A DNA stretch of 64,000 nucleotides, taken from NCBI GenBank assembly GCA_025060325.1, contig JANXBW010000001.1, positions 186,001-250,000 of the forward strand, written 5' to 3'. Below, piece after piece: positions 7,851 through 23,045 of this stretch; position 1 is the first letter of the stretch, and each line of letters starts with the position of its first letter. A program made the position numbers and the translations under genes. The notes below the pieces were generated by a model. That model had not been told where the DNA came from. It was given only the letters and a program-made list of their open reading frames with translations, and searched no databases. The stretch is from Thermoguttaceae bacterium (GTDB lineage: Bacteria > Planctomycetota > Planctomycetia > Pirellulales > Thermoguttaceae).

Positions 7851-8708
7851 TTAACGGAGGGGAATTGTCGGGGATAATCGCCGTCCCACTCTGTCGGTTA
7901 AATAAGTTTGGAAGGGGCCATGCTCCGGCCGTAGATCCAACACAAAGCCTTGGAGTGTTCCCTGGCGATCAAGCCGCACCGGTTGACGCACCGGTGGCGC
8001 CCCGGCCGACTCGATCACCCAAAAGTAAGGGGCGTTGGGCTCCGGTTCACCCTGGACCCACCGATAATCGACACTAAACCCCATGGCCGTGCCGGTTGGC
8101 AGAAGCTGAGGCAAAGCCACTCCGGCGGACAGCTGAATCGCAAAAGCCGCTTCCGGCGACTGACCACTTGGTCCTCGAGAAACCGTCTGCCGGCTTAGCT
8201 CTGGTTGACTGGCTCGTTCAGGCGACGCCAAGGGGTAGGGCCGCGGCTGCTGGCCGGCATCCAAAGACGCTGCTGGCCGGCGATACGGAGAAGATCCTGC
8301 ACCTTCATCGGGCAGTCTTGCTTCAGTGCTTGTCTCTCCGGTAGCTCCCTCATGTTTGAGCAGCCCTCCCTCGGCAGGCGCCGCAGGGAGCTCGGCTGTT
8401 GCCAGCCGGTCTTCTTCCCCGACACTTTTAGCGGCTGGCATTTGAGACACCTCCCCACCGACCGGCGTCTTAGCCGGAGTCCCTGTCTCGGATCGGGCGC
8501 CTAACGGCGAACCAGGGGAGCTTGCAGGCCCCTGGGCGCCAGCTTGCAACTTAGTGGCAGTGTCGTAACCGGTTTCGCACGCCGAGATGGTCGCCAGAAC
8601 AAGAAGCCCGCATAGGAACCAGACGCACCGGAGACCTACTTTAGGACTAGAGGGGGAAATCACAAGATCGGGCGGCTCTCCCGGTTTCAGACCCAAACAC
8701 CCTTTCAT
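7851..8708 (-). CDS. Putative lipoprotein of unknown function
   Basis: Likely ATG at 8708 preceded by GGGAGGGAGG; hydrophobic WFLCGLLVLATISAC lipobox; Ala/Gly/Pro-rich middle. The ORF extends upstream to 8765. Confidence 0.6.
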   Translation of the reverse strand: MKGCLGLKPGEPPDLVISPSSPKVGLRCVWFLCGLLVLATISACETGYDTATKLQAGAQGPASSPGSPLGARSETGTPAKTPVGGEVSQMPAAKSVGEEDRLATAELPAAPAEGGLLKHEGATGETSTEARLPDEGAGSSPYRRPAASLDAGQQPRPYPLASPERASQPELSRQTVSRGPSGQSPEAAFAIQLSAGVALPQLLPTGTAMGFSVDYRWVQGEPEPNAPYFWVIESAGAPPVRQPVRLDRQGTLQGFVLDLRPEHGPFQTYLTDRVGRRLSPTIPLR

Positions 8709-9626
8709 ACTCCACACCTCCCTCCCTTCAAGTTTCCCGGGGCGGCACTCCGGAATGGATCGCACGCTGGCGGAAGCTGATTCTTTCGCTCTACTAGAGC
8801 GAGGAGGATCGCCGCAAGTCCAAGGGCGCTTGAGACTGGGGTCACTCTCAAGCCGGTTTTGTGCTTAGGTTAAATCACACTCTGCCCCTGCAGTCCCTTC
8901 TGCTCAAACCCAATATCCGTTCTCTACTCCCTTGCGGCCAACCCGCACCTTCCGGCAACCGCCGGCTGCGGCCGACCGCCCTATTATCCAGTTTAAAGTA
9001 GGGCAGGTGCTCCTAAAAAACATTGCGGCGGTTTGCTGCTTACGCGGCAACCCCTGCAGGACCCCACCTTCGTAGTGTCATCACGAATCGCACCAGCCGC
9101 CCTCCTTTGGTACGCACCCAGAGTAAACCGCCCGTCCACGATCACCGGCCCTTGGTCCAGAGCGCAGAAGCCCTCAAGTAAGAACTCCCTTATAAGCCAA
9201 AAGATTCTTTGGATCGGCACTCGGTCTGCGTTTATCCCAGCCGGAGAAGATCAAGAAACTCAAACGCTGCGACAGTTAGCCCGCCAGAGCCAAAGTTGTA
9301 CACTTCGATTGGCCTTTCCAAACGACAAATCAAGAGGCACTCGATCAAGTCAGACTTCTCTAAAAGTGTTTCGGACATTGAATCGGGGTTGGCAGCCTAG
9401 GGCAATCGTAACAAAAATCGTCTGCCCGACCTCGAAGATGTTGTTGCCTTCGCGGGAGCTTGCAGCCATAATTGTTGCATTTGTTAGTCTGCTCTTGATT
9501 AAGGCGAGGAGCGGCAAGCCAAAAGATTGCTGCTTTCTCATTTTGGAGGAGGGCTGGGCGATCGCCTCGACGGGAGATTTGCCGAGCTTTTGACCATTAT
9601 GTTGATTCTTTTCGGAGGAAGGGCTA

Positions 9627-18634: not shown

Positions 18635-19933
18635 ATGCGGAAAACGCTTACTGCCTTATTCAAATCCCCCGTTGTTTTAGGGGCGCTAATGGCAGCCGGA
18701 TGGTACACGCTCATACTGTGGGGACCGCTTAACCATCCCACCATCCGGGCATTGTTTACGGAACATCCCGTTGAACATGTCAGCGCGATCCTTTTTTTCG
18801 TGGGCATAGGGTCTTTGCTCCTCCGGACAGCCGGACTGTTACGCGATTGGCGGGTCATTCGTCAGTGGCCCGGCGGTTGGAACTTTTCTGCTGACGATCG
18901 GCAAATTGGCGTTGACGAATTCATTGACAAACTTTCCCGCTTCGCCGATAAGCTATCGGGTTCAAGGCTCGGTCATCGGATGCGTGAACTCGCCCGGATG
19001 TTGGAAACCAATCCGGAAGGACCCGACCTGGATAGCCACCTGCGCATACTTTCTGAGAAGGATGCGGCAGCAGCCCAGGCGCGGTCGACTCTTGTTCGCA
19101 TGTTCATTTGGGCTATTCCAATCCTTGGGTTTCTAGGCACAGTTATAGGCATCGCGATGGCCCTCGGTCGACTGGCTCCGCAACAACTGGAGGAAAGCTT
19201 GCCGGTGGTGATGGCGGCGTTGACTGTCGCCTTCAACACAACAATTCTTGCACTTGCCCTTTGCCTCATTCTGTATTTCGGGCTTTACGTGGTGGAACGG
19301 GCGGAGGCCGGAATACTTGGTCGCGTTGACCAAATCGCCGAGGAGGTGCTTGCTGCCTTTGCGCGAAGCCGCCCCTCCATAAGCAAACAGTCCTCAGGGG
19401 GAACCACCCCGTCCACTGGTGACCAATTCCTTGCGCTCCTCCAGGCGCCGCTGGCAACCTGGGAACTTGCGGTTCAAGAATTCGTCTCCTCCGTCCGACA
19501 GCTAACCACCGAGCTGTCAACTGCGCTTGGGCAAGCGCTGGCAAAGGCGTTGGAGGAGGTTCTCCACGGGCATGCGGCTCGCCTGCTGGCTGTGGAGGAA
19601 AAGGCGCTTGCCCAACATCAGGAGCACCTGGACGAGCTTTACCGCCATTATCACAAACGACTTGAGCGGGTGCTGGAACTGGAGCGATCCGTTGAGCAGC
19701 GGACCGAGATGCTCCTTAAGGCTCTGGAAGGTGCAGAAACGCTGCGAACACTCCAGGAAGCACTCCAGCGTAATTTGGCCATCCTGGCCACCTCGCGACA
19801 ATTTGAACAAATGCTAATGAGTCTAACAGCAGCCATCCACCTGCTGACCACACGCATCGAGGCCCCGGTGGGAACCCCTAGCGCGCCGCAAACGCTGCCG
19901 GTCCATGTGCACGGGCTTCGGCAAGCGGGTTAG
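18635..19933 (+). CDS. MotA/TolQ/ExbB-type proton channel subunit with long C-terminal coiled-coil tail
   Basis: IPILGFLGTVIGIAMALG and AALTVAFNTTILALALCLILYFGLYVVERAE match TolQ/ExbB TM2/TM3 signatures; about 170 aa predicted helical tail. Confidence 0.8.
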   Translation: MRKTLTALFKSPVVLGALMAAGWYTLILWGPLNHPTIRALFTEHPVEHVSAILFFVGIGSLLLRTAGLLRDWRVIRQWPGGWNFSADDRQIGVDEFIDKLSRFADKLSGSRLGHRMRELARMLETNPEGPDLDSHLRILSEKDAAAAQARSTLVRMFIWAIPILGFLGTVIGIAMALGRLAPQQLEESLPVVMAALTVAFNTTILALALCLILYFGLYVVERAEAGILGRVDQIAEEVLAAFARSRPSISKQSSGGTTPSTGDQFLALLQAPLATWELAVQEFVSSVRQLTTELSTALGQALAKALEEVLHGHAARLLAVEEKALAQHQEHLDELYRHYHKRLERVLELERSVEQRTEMLLKALEGAETLRTLQEALQRNLAILATSRQFEQMLMSLTAAIHLLTTRIEAPVGTPSAPQTLPVHVHGLRQAG

Positions 19934-19949
19934 ATTGTAAACGTAACCT

Positions 19950-21704
19950 ATGGCCCAATTAGCCCGCTCTAAAGGGAAGACCGGCTCGGCCTTGGGGTTT
20001 GCTCCCCCAAGTATCCCCTTTTTTCCGTTCGTCAGTGTGCTCATCTCCACCATGGGGATCCTTATTCTGCTCATAGTGGTGATTGGGCAGCGCGCTCGCA
20101 TAGCTGCCAGCCGACAAGCCGAGGCGGCACGCCAGAGGACAAAAGAGGAATTAACCTCCTCCCTTGAGCTTCTCGATTGGGAACTTGAGATGCTCCGCCA
20201 GACAACTGGCGCGGGGCAACAAAAGGTGCAGGACCTTCGGCTAGCATTAGGGCACCTGGAGGACCATGCCCGTCGACTGAGAACCCAGCGCGATCAGCTA
20301 ATCGCTTTTCTCCGCGAAGGCGACAACCGGCCGGAGGCGCAAACTTCCGTCGCGCAGCTGCAAAGTCAGATCTCAGCCGTCAACAAACAAATCGAGGCCG
20401 TTACCCACGAATTAGAAGCCCTCCGGCGAAAACAGGGTCGGCGTTTCTTTTCGATTGTCCCCTACGCCGGTCCGTACGGCTCGGCCCGCTGGCCGATCTA
20501 CATTGAGTGCCGACGGGACGCGATCGTCATTCAACCAGAAGGGATAGCACTCACCCCGGAGGATTTTCAGCCAGATCTCGGGCCGGCCAATCCGCTGGAG
20601 GTGGCCTTACGTGCGATTCGCGAGTATTGGAGTCGAAACAACCCCGGCCAAGGCGACCCTTATCCGCTTCTGCTCGTTCGGCCCAGCGGCATCGGAGCCT
20701 ACTATGTTGCCCGGGCGGCGCTTGACACCTGGACCGGAGAGTTCGGTTACGAGCTTATTGACGAAGATTGGGAAATCGTCTACCCGCCACCAAACGGGGA
20801 GTTAGCACGCCAGCTGGCCATGGCGGTCGAAGAGGCAAGAGCCAAGGCCCGCCTGCTGGCGGCCGTAAGCCCGCGGCGCGTGGCGGCGGCTCCCAAGCGT
20901 TTCATTCTGTCGCCGGACCGCGGGGGCCTTATTCCCGAAGCGGGTGCTCCCCTCGAGATTCCCGCGATCCAACCTTCGTATCGTAGACAAGCGGATTCTC
21001 AAGACTCCCTCTCAACACAGGCAAAAGCTCCGCACAGCGGCGCCGCCGGCACTGACGGACAACTTCCGGCCCCTGGGCGCCGGGCTTCCGGCGCAATTGG
21101 AAGATACCCCCCGGATGGGGACATACTGGCCGGCCAGTCGGGCAGTGGGGAAATGCAACCGCCGAGTAGCGCGTCATCTGACCTTCAGAACTGGCCACGC
21201 TTCGGCAGCCAAATTCCCGGGGAAACATCGGCGCAATCCGACCGAGAAGCGGTCAGCTCGGCCACTTCAACAGGCCCAGGGTCGGCCGCAAGCGAGGGAC
21301 TCAGGAGCACCGCGGCAGGACAAATGGGAACTTCCTTGCAAAGTTTAGCGCAGTTGCGGGGTCAAGATTGGGCCGTACCAGGGGCCGTCCGGCTTCTGGT
21401 GCCCCTTACCCGTCCGGTGCGGCTTAAGTGTAGGCCTGACTCGCTCCTCATCGTTCCCGAAGCCGGTCTCGGGGCTCCCATTGCCATTCCCTGGGAAGAT
21501 CCGCCGGAAAAGACCGTCGATAACCTGGTTCGACAGATTTGGGACTATGTGGCGACGTGGGGGCCGGCTGGACGAGGTATGGCTTGGCGCCCAATCCTGC
21601 GAGTCGAAGTTGCTCCGGGGGCCGAGGGACGATTTCGAGACCTGAAAACCCTTCTCGAAGGAAGTGGACTTGTTGTGGAACAAGCCGACGTGCCAGGGAA
21701 TTAA
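19950..21704 (+). CDS. Single-TM coiled-coil protein with two ExbD-like repeats (putative stator partner lacking the TM Asp)
   Basis: Starts 16 bp after the channel gene; TM FVSVLISTMGILILLIVVIGQRA; coiled coil; two copies of a CRxDxxxIxPE domain. Confidence 0.7.
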   Translation: MAQLARSKGKTGSALGFAPPSIPFFPFVSVLISTMGILILLIVVIGQRARIAASRQAEAARQRTKEELTSSLELLDWELEMLRQTTGAGQQKVQDLRLALGHLEDHARRLRTQRDQLIAFLREGDNRPEAQTSVAQLQSQISAVNKQIEAVTHELEALRRKQGRRFFSIVPYAGPYGSARWPIYIECRRDAIVIQPEGIALTPEDFQPDLGPANPLEVALRAIREYWSRNNPGQGDPYPLLLVRPSGIGAYYVARAALDTWTGEFGYELIDEDWEIVYPPPNGELARQLAMAVEEARAKARLLAAVSPRRVAAAPKRFILSPDRGGLIPEAGAPLEIPAIQPSYRRQADSQDSLSTQAKAPHSGAAGTDGQLPAPGRRASGAIGRYPPDGDILAGQSGSGEMQPPSSASSDLQNWPRFGSQIPGETSAQSDREAVSSATSTGPGSAASEGLRSTAAGQMGTSLQSLAQLRGQDWAVPGAVRLLVPLTRPVRLKCRPDSLLIVPEAGLGAPIAIPWEDPPEKTVDNLVRQIWDYVATWGPAGRGMAWRPILRVEVAPGAEGRFRDLKTLLEGSGLVVEQADVPGN

Positions 21705-22025
21705 CGCATTTTTCGCAGATTTCTCAGAATACCAGGAGTGAGGTTAGCATCTGAACTGAGAGTATGCCCGCAGCTGGTCGTCCGTTCCCGGCGGGCCTGC
21801 GGGCAAGATCGGGCAAGCCTGAGGGTGCATCACTGGAGGGGAAACTAAGTCCCTTTGTCGGACATCGGGAGAGGACGTGTGGGCAGCACTCGCTAACCGG
21901 GGGAACCGAAAAAGCCACTTGCCTGATCCTCTCACACTGCACCCACCCCCGGATTTTGCCGGTCCACTGGGGCGAGGAACGGCCAACCATGTAATCCACG
22001 GACTCATCTCGAGCGGAGCCAGCCT

Positions 22026-23045
22026 GTGAGTAGCGGTAGCTGGGAAATATCCGAAGGCCTTCCTGGACAGGATTCATTCCTCGATATCGTTGCGAATATC
22101 GTGGGAATCCTCATCATCTTAGGAATTGTGGTCGGGATTAGGGCGCAGCGAGCTCCGGTTGCGCCCTCCCAGCTGGACCCAGACCTTCCGCGCCTCCATC
22201 AAGTTGCCTCAGAGAAGGCCCGCGAGGCTGCCAAACTTCGCCAAGAAATCGCCCGTCTCGAGGCGACTTATCAAAGTTTGGAACAAGAAAAGGCATTCCA
22301 GCAAAAGATTCGCGACCGGCTAGCGCTAGAGGTGGCTGCCCTCCAAAAGATGATTGCGATTCAAAGCGATCGTGCGGCCACTCTATCCGATCAAGCTTGG
22401 CAGCTACAACTTGAGCTTCAAGAGCGGCTCGGGTACCTTCGGGAATTGGAGGCTCAAAAATCGCAATTACAACAGGTTGTGGACAACGTCACGCAGATCA
22501 CACACTATCCGGCCCCAGTAGCCAAGTTTGTTGATACCAAAGAGGTGCACTTTCAGCTGCAGAGCAATCGCGTGGCACACATCCCCCTTGACCGGCTTAT
22601 CGAGCAGCTGAAGGAGCGGGCCAAACTCGAAGCCTCGCGGCTCCTAAGCCAAAGTGAATGGACGGACGTCGTTGGACCGGAAGGAGGCTTCCAACTCCGC
22701 TTTATCCTCCGGCGTTACGACGTACCAATCAACATCCCCGGTCAAGGAAGGGGGACAGCCAGTTACGTACGGGTCGAACATTGGGTCTTGCTGCCCACCT
22801 CCCCGCAATTAGGGGAGCCTTTGGAAAAGGCCATTCAACCGGACTCTCAGTTCTGGCGGACGGTCAACCAGTATAATCCCAAGGAGTACACAATTACCCT
22901 GTGGGTTTACCCGGAAAGCTTCGAGGGATATCGCCAACTTCGGGACCGGCTTCACGCTGCCGGCTACACCTGCGCCGCCCGGCCACTTCCTGCAGGAGTG
23001 CCGATTTCTGGCTCGCCGCGGGGAAGTCGCTCTGCCGCCCAGTAG
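22026..23045 (+). CDS. Single-TM coiled-coil ExbD/MotB-like protein with TM Asp (putative stator partner)
   Basis: GTG start; TM FLDIVANIVGILIILGIVVGIRA with D20; coiled coil; ExbD-like C-terminal segment ITLWVYPESFEGYRQLRDRLHAAGYTC. Confidence 0.7.
   Translation: MSSGSWEISEGLPGQDSFLDIVANIVGILIILGIVVGIRAQRAPVAPSQLDPDLPRLHQVASEKAREAAKLRQEIARLEATYQSLEQEKAFQQKIRDRLALEVAALQKMIAIQSDRAATLSDQAWQLQLELQERLGYLRELEAQKSQLQQVVDNVTQITHYPAPVAKFVDTKEVHFQLQSNRVAHIPLDRLIEQLKERAKLEASRLLSQSEWTDVVGPEGGFQLRFILRRYDVPINIPGQGRGTASYVRVEHWVLLPTSPQLGEPLEKAIQPDSQFWRTVNQYNPKEYTITLWVYPESFEGYRQLRDRLHAAGYTCAARPLPAGVPISGSPRGSRSAAQ

Follow-up and report, generated by a model that had tools for sequence, protein, structure and literature searches.

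The window, i.e. the whole stretch of 64,000 nucleotides of Thermoguttaceae DNA that was analysed, contains three consecutive open reading frames on the plus strand that form an operon, and that we call A, S and D (Table 1). A matches the Pfam family MotA_ExbB (PF01618) with E = 1.2e-9 and a score of 38.4 bits against a cut-off of 22.9, and is thus a member of that family. Its pore threonines T169 and T203 are also conserved, so the channel partner in the motor reading of a first-pass annotation of this DNA is real. A additionally matches models of ZorA weakly (best E 2e-10). In 128/169 orthologues A carries a further Asp in the fourth transmembrane (TM) helix (position 201, in the sequence FDTT). 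This second transmembrane carboxylate may take part in the motor of most orthologues, so that the single protonation site of the first-pass annotation is perhaps too strong a description for them. In the window itself position 201 is Asn, as it is in eight other G-type loci. S and D are separated by a spacer of 321 bases (21705-22025); in many relatives the two genes lie closer together or overlap.

Table 1. Genes and features of the A-S-D operon, with positions in the window
Feature	Position	Strand	Description	Basis
Gene A	18635..19933	+	MotA/TolQ/ExbB-family channel subunit, 432 aa, long cytoplasmic helical tail	Pfam MotA_ExbB
T169 of A	19139..19141	+	pore threonine, GTVxG motif, TM3	47/47 gap-free sequences
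T203 of A	19241..19243	+	pore threonine, TM4 (N201-T202-T203)	47/47; 164/165 in larger set
Gene S	19950..21704	+	584 aa; ExbD-like TM without TM Asp, coiled-coil stalk, two periplasmic domains joined by a disordered linker	ORF, AF2
TM helix of S	20025..20093	+	aligns ungapped to TM of D	sequence; AF2 helix from residue 26
S29 codon	20034..20036	+	AGT, in FPFVSVLIS; equivalent of proton-binding Asp	orthologue alignment
Coiled-coil stalk of S	20097..20432	+		AF2 helix to residue 161
S periplasmic domain 1	20445..20780	+	residues 166-277, beta-beta-beta-alpha-beta-alpha-beta	AF2
S disordered linker	20946..21326	+	residues 333-459; variable, Gly-rich in relatives	pLDDT <50; alignment
S periplasmic domain 2	21399..21683	+	residues 484-578, weakly ExbD/TolR-like	hhalign, Foldseek
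Gene D	22026..23045	+	339 aa; ExbD-like TM that has the Asp, then a coiled-coil stalk and an alpha/beta domain in the periplasm	ORF, AF2
TM helix of D	22071..22148	+	residues 16-41	AF2
D20 codon	22083..22085	+	GAT, in FLDIVANIV; conserved pore Asp	orthologue alignment
Coiled-coil stalk of D	22185..22475	+	residues 54-150	AF2
D periplasmic domain	22533..23015	+		AF2, mostly pLDDT >94

Homology and predicted structure of S and D

Neither S nor D matches a curated family (Pfam, NCBIfam) above cut-off. There is in particular no match of D to Pfam ExbD (PF02472), and comparison of D with ExbD by hhalign gave E = 0.27. Searches with both proteins against Pfam, NCBIfam, PADLOC and the sequences of the PDB returned only coiled-coil noise. 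Judged by their profiles, the two proteins are related to each other: comparison of the S and D profiles gave E = 2.6e-11, through the TM helix and the stalk and with no gap in the TM segment, and a profile of D orthologues matches S with E = 1.1e-9 (G000:C11:206028-206441). On this evidence the two single-TM proteins are homologues, with a similarity that is beyond chance. The first-pass annotation had aligned the two TM segments without gaps, setting D20 against S29; both reading frames, both codons and the alignment are as it claimed. Asp16 of the D profile (profile A1, equivalent to D20 of the protein) lies opposite the Ala/Ser column of S, in the register TPMID of canonical ExbD, DSFLD of D and FPFLA of S. 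D thus carries, at the beginning of its single TM helix, the Asp that characterizes the axle proteins of the ExbD/TolR/MotB family, while S in the window has Ser.

The AlphaFold2 (AF2) model of S (pLDDT 76) has one long helix, in two segments, that runs to residue 161; that of D has a pLDDT of 86. Domain 2 of S is weakly similar to canonical ExbD (hhalign E = 0.0038, probability 9%), and a Foldseek search with S placed TolR (5by4) at rank 14 with a weak E of 0.21. A Foldseek search with D gave no convincing match in the PDB (best E = 0.019, none below 0.01). By our reading of the models, both domains of S, and D more loosely, appear to follow the order beta-beta-alpha-beta-alpha-beta. Because the PDB matches are weak, ExbD-like periplasmic folds in S and D are at most suggested.

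Distribution of the operon and of the pore-site residues

Among 60 relatives, all 44 good genomes contain S and all 44 contain D. Thermogutta and metagenome-assembled genomes of Thermoguttaceae are the close named relatives, which points to a planctomycete of the order Pirellulales as the source of the DNA. A D orthologue was found in 149 of the 187 good genomes from the class Planctomycetia; outside the class only weak and distant matches were obtained. S and D are adjacent genes, normally with one copy of each. The order A-S-D is kept in most intact loci, and in 62/62 named loci that have all three genes; the other 18/80 lacked A and/or S in the fetched locus. A survey of the surrounding genes across the loci found no conserved neighbours beyond A, S and D. 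Two apparent neighbour clusters, each of 43 loci, consist of long open frames and were taken for shadow ORFs that overlie the operon. One record titled Candidatus Nealsonbacteria (L131) contains a typical Pirellulales A-S-D operon, and its title or bin is probably wrong.

At the position equivalent to the pore Asp, 141 of the 191 pooled S orthologues have Ala, 20 have Asp, nine Ser, six Thr and one Glu; in these counts for S and D two collections overlap and some genomes are counted twice. Ala is the usual residue, and the Ser of the window is a minority state. In D the Asp is present in 193/200 pooled loci. The exceptions are six loci of an Isosphaera-like family that have no motor gene, together with a doubtful relative (L119), so that D20 is invariant wherever the motor gene is present across Planctomycetia, in support of the first-pass reading. 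Tandem pairs of canonical ExbD in kindred genomes have Asp in both members, and loss from one partner is therefore not a general habit of the gene pairs of these bacteria.

S has no acid in any of the 145 loci with a Gly-type A in which its residue could be read. A minority of S orthologues do have an acid, which the first-pass annotation would have counted against its reading, but they have it lawfully, alongside a divergent form of A that we call A′, and this strengthens the pore reading. A′ has GTVxHFG in TM3 in place of the ordinary GTVxGI, and FNTT in TM4 in place of FDTT. It was found in 19 of 247 Pirellulales genomes, where the S residue is Asp in 17, Glu in one and Ser in one; the exception (G391) combines the His of A′ with Ser in S. 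An acidic S thus accompanies 18/19 A′ and 0/145 Gly-type A (Fisher p = 4e-23, ancestry ignored). Most loci with Asp in S have no adjoining A gene, and in several genomes A′ is relocated elsewhere; wherever an A-type gene was found in a genome with an acidic S, it was A′. Dismissal of the loci with Asp in S as noise was dropped once A′ had been found.

On the tree of A, A′ forms a single clade (SH-aLRT 100) that branches from within the ordinary A sequences. The tree of S was calculated with the TM segment left out, and on it the acid requires five changes, at least three of them on well supported branches, and on the tree of D it requires six. These repeated changes indicate that the S residue and the type of A changed together more than once. 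A test of independent pairs gave three supported pairs, with change nearly always in the expected direction, and these are too few for p<0.05. This correspondence between the residue of S and the form of A is what one would predict were S to line the pore together with D. His172 of A′ is roughly one turn of the helix away from T169 and so could face the S position, and the natural switch between A and A′ points to the pair of positions S29 and A172.

We note some shorter paralogous systems. Three A-S-D operons (L116-L118) have Ser in S and Asp in D at the pore site, and their A begins with a Cys-rich segment resembling a zinc ribbon; a further shorter system from outside the class (L258) is also Ser/Asp. 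In two distant systems from outside the class (L256 and L257) A is of the Gly type and S and D both carry Asp, so the association of an acid in S with His in A is limited to the orthologous family.

A possible motor with an unlike axle

We think it fairly probable that A, S and D constitute a motor of the MotA/ExbB superfamily driven by the proton motive force (PMF), with an axle of unlike subunits bearing one carboxylate. The ring would comprise five A subunits and the axle one S and one D, i.e. a 5:1:1 stoichiometry with an S-D heterodimer. D alone would provide the proton-binding carboxylate, S placing Ala (Ser in the window) at the equivalent site. Protonation of D20 and its release against the threonine ring of A (T169 and T203) would allow protons to pass, and this passage would move ring and axle relative to each other, presumably by rotation. 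The paired coiled-coil stalk of S and D would transmit the force across the periplasm to the globular domains, of which S has two and D one, with domain 2 of S sitting on a flexible tether. The output is most likely coupling to the envelope or to peptidoglycan. A stricter version, in which the asymmetric motor of one D and one S is kept class-wide and nature has several times switched between one-acid and two-acid forms, falls slightly short of an even chance in our estimation.

The layout of S, with a TM helix lacking Asp, a helical region, a long variable linker and a C-terminal domain, resembles that of TonB and TolA. The axle inside the A pentamer could then be a D homodimer with two Asp residues, while S, bound to the outer face of the ring, acts as a force transducer that extends outward through its linker and C-terminal domain; in ExbBD-TonB and TolQRA the transducer is indeed held at the side (PMC12204202). 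The TM segment of S, however, is an ungapped homologue of that of D and keeps the Pro of ExbD (FPFLA compared with TPMID). Transducers that bind at the side use an SHLS/His motif (PMC12204202), and alignment found no conserved His or SHLS motif in the TM segment of S. Moreover, an acid appears at the pore site of S when A changes to A′. A transducer role for S is therefore unlikely.

The stalks of S and D bear on whether the unlike subunits pair. Stalk length was taken from the key TM residue to the conserved Pro at the start of the domain, and for the window this gives 142 residues for S and 142 for D. Over 121 S/D pairs the median difference is 4 residues (Spearman 0.72). In 60 contrasts between close pairs r = 0.58, or 0.72 without the A′ systems (permutation p 5e-5; sign tests p 0.006 and 0.002). 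Such matching of sequence lengths fits a parallel S-D coiled coil, and also two rods that span the same gap. Five A′ systems of one genus (G453, G458, G461, G464 and G512; family f7, genus g304) have an S stalk 24-58 residues longer than that of D, a larger mismatch than in other groups, of which G453 may be an alignment error.

If A instead paired separately with homodimers of D and of S, the S rings being inactive or regulatory, one A gene would serve both, as is observed, and the AlphaFold models of the single chains do each give a long single-helix stalk. Against this, S and D are adjacent and normally present once each, with stalk lengths that co-vary, and an S ring with no axle carboxylate in most species would be an odd thing to conserve throughout the class. 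We regard separate homodimers as improbable.

In the Isosphaera-like family (code f96, an informal name guessed from where it falls within the class) the locus retains S and D but has no A. No A orthologue was found in 19/19 of these genomes, where the best matches scored 75-143 bits compared with 395-513 bits in five genomes of other families. Inspection of the TM segment showed that the Asp of the SFLD sequence of D is lost in 30/30 loci read. The family is one clade, so the loss of A and of the Asp was probably a single event. The periplasmic parts of S and D persist there without the motor gene (L265-L270, L392-L415), so they may have a role that is independent of the motor. Apart from this, some Isosphaera-like genomes encode an ExbB-like protein whose TM3 contains Glu (GTVEGI; L313:6581-7873 and 8197-9093, also L314-L317 and L320). 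Its adjoining partner is a single-TM protein, GEDSFVAVVVTKLTG, with Val where ExbD has Asp, and from the sequences this pair seems to carry its acid on the ring protein, like GldL.

The TM4 Asp of A might similarly be the main proton site of most motors, with D20 secondary; this has a precedent in E49 of GldL (PMC8986121), and the presence of Asn at 201 in those A′ that accompany an acidic S looks as if acids trade places, but D20 is more strictly conserved than position 201, which is Asn in the window and elsewhere, and it vanishes when A vanishes, so that we give the idea little credence. The three natural patterns, i.e. acidic S with A′, joint loss of A and the Asp in the Isosphaera-like family, and matched stalks, together support a role in the pore, as in the motor with an S-D axle.

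Comparison with known motors

A-S-D appears to be a core three-gene system of Planctomycetia that was previously unannotated. Like ZorAB of Zorya it has a ring protein with a long tail. Membership of Zorya type I/II was nevertheless rejected: the score for ZorA2 is 19.9 bits against a cut-off of 700, and the loci have no Zorya effectors or other conserved neighbour. Unlike ZorAB, A-S-D is present class-wide as a core operon.

Other systems combine one ring protein with unlike partners. AglRQS of Myxococcus gliding has one ring gene and two TolR/MotB-like genes, but AglQ and AglS are both reported to have a conserved Asp, and whether they heterodimerize is unknown (PMC9389320). In PVC and other bacteria there are TolQ-like genes with heterologous TolR-like pairs, and also TPH-vWA pairs. 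Unlike axle partners have been proposed there from gene pairs and AF3 models, and the TPH-vWA partners are reported with one Asp per monomer (PMC12204202), in contrast to A-S-D. A literature search of partial coverage turned up no account of an Asp/Ala axle pair. GldLM has a long periplasmic extension on its axle protein and also departs from the two-Asp scheme; its key acid is E49 of the ring protein GldL (PMC8986121), whereas A-S-D has its conserved acid on one of the axle proteins.

The 5:2 PMF motors ExbBD, TolQR and MotAB share with A-S-D a MotA_ExbB ring with pore threonines, a single-TM axle protein that carries Asp at the beginning of its helix, and periplasmic domains. The A-S-D axle differs in being an unlike pair of which one member has no Asp, with long coiled-coil stalks and three globular domains that belong to no assigned family. 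Published models of 5:2 motors, that for MotAB among them, have two axle Asp residues that are protonated in alternation (PMC10659934). With Ala or Ser in S that published cycle cannot run as written. If the conserved one-acid axle is real, then either alternation is not required, or the mechanism is different, for instance a ratchet, or a turn that uses half as many protons. A two-partner motor with its acid in one shaft protein in nearly all species would thus be a natural test of the motor mechanism.
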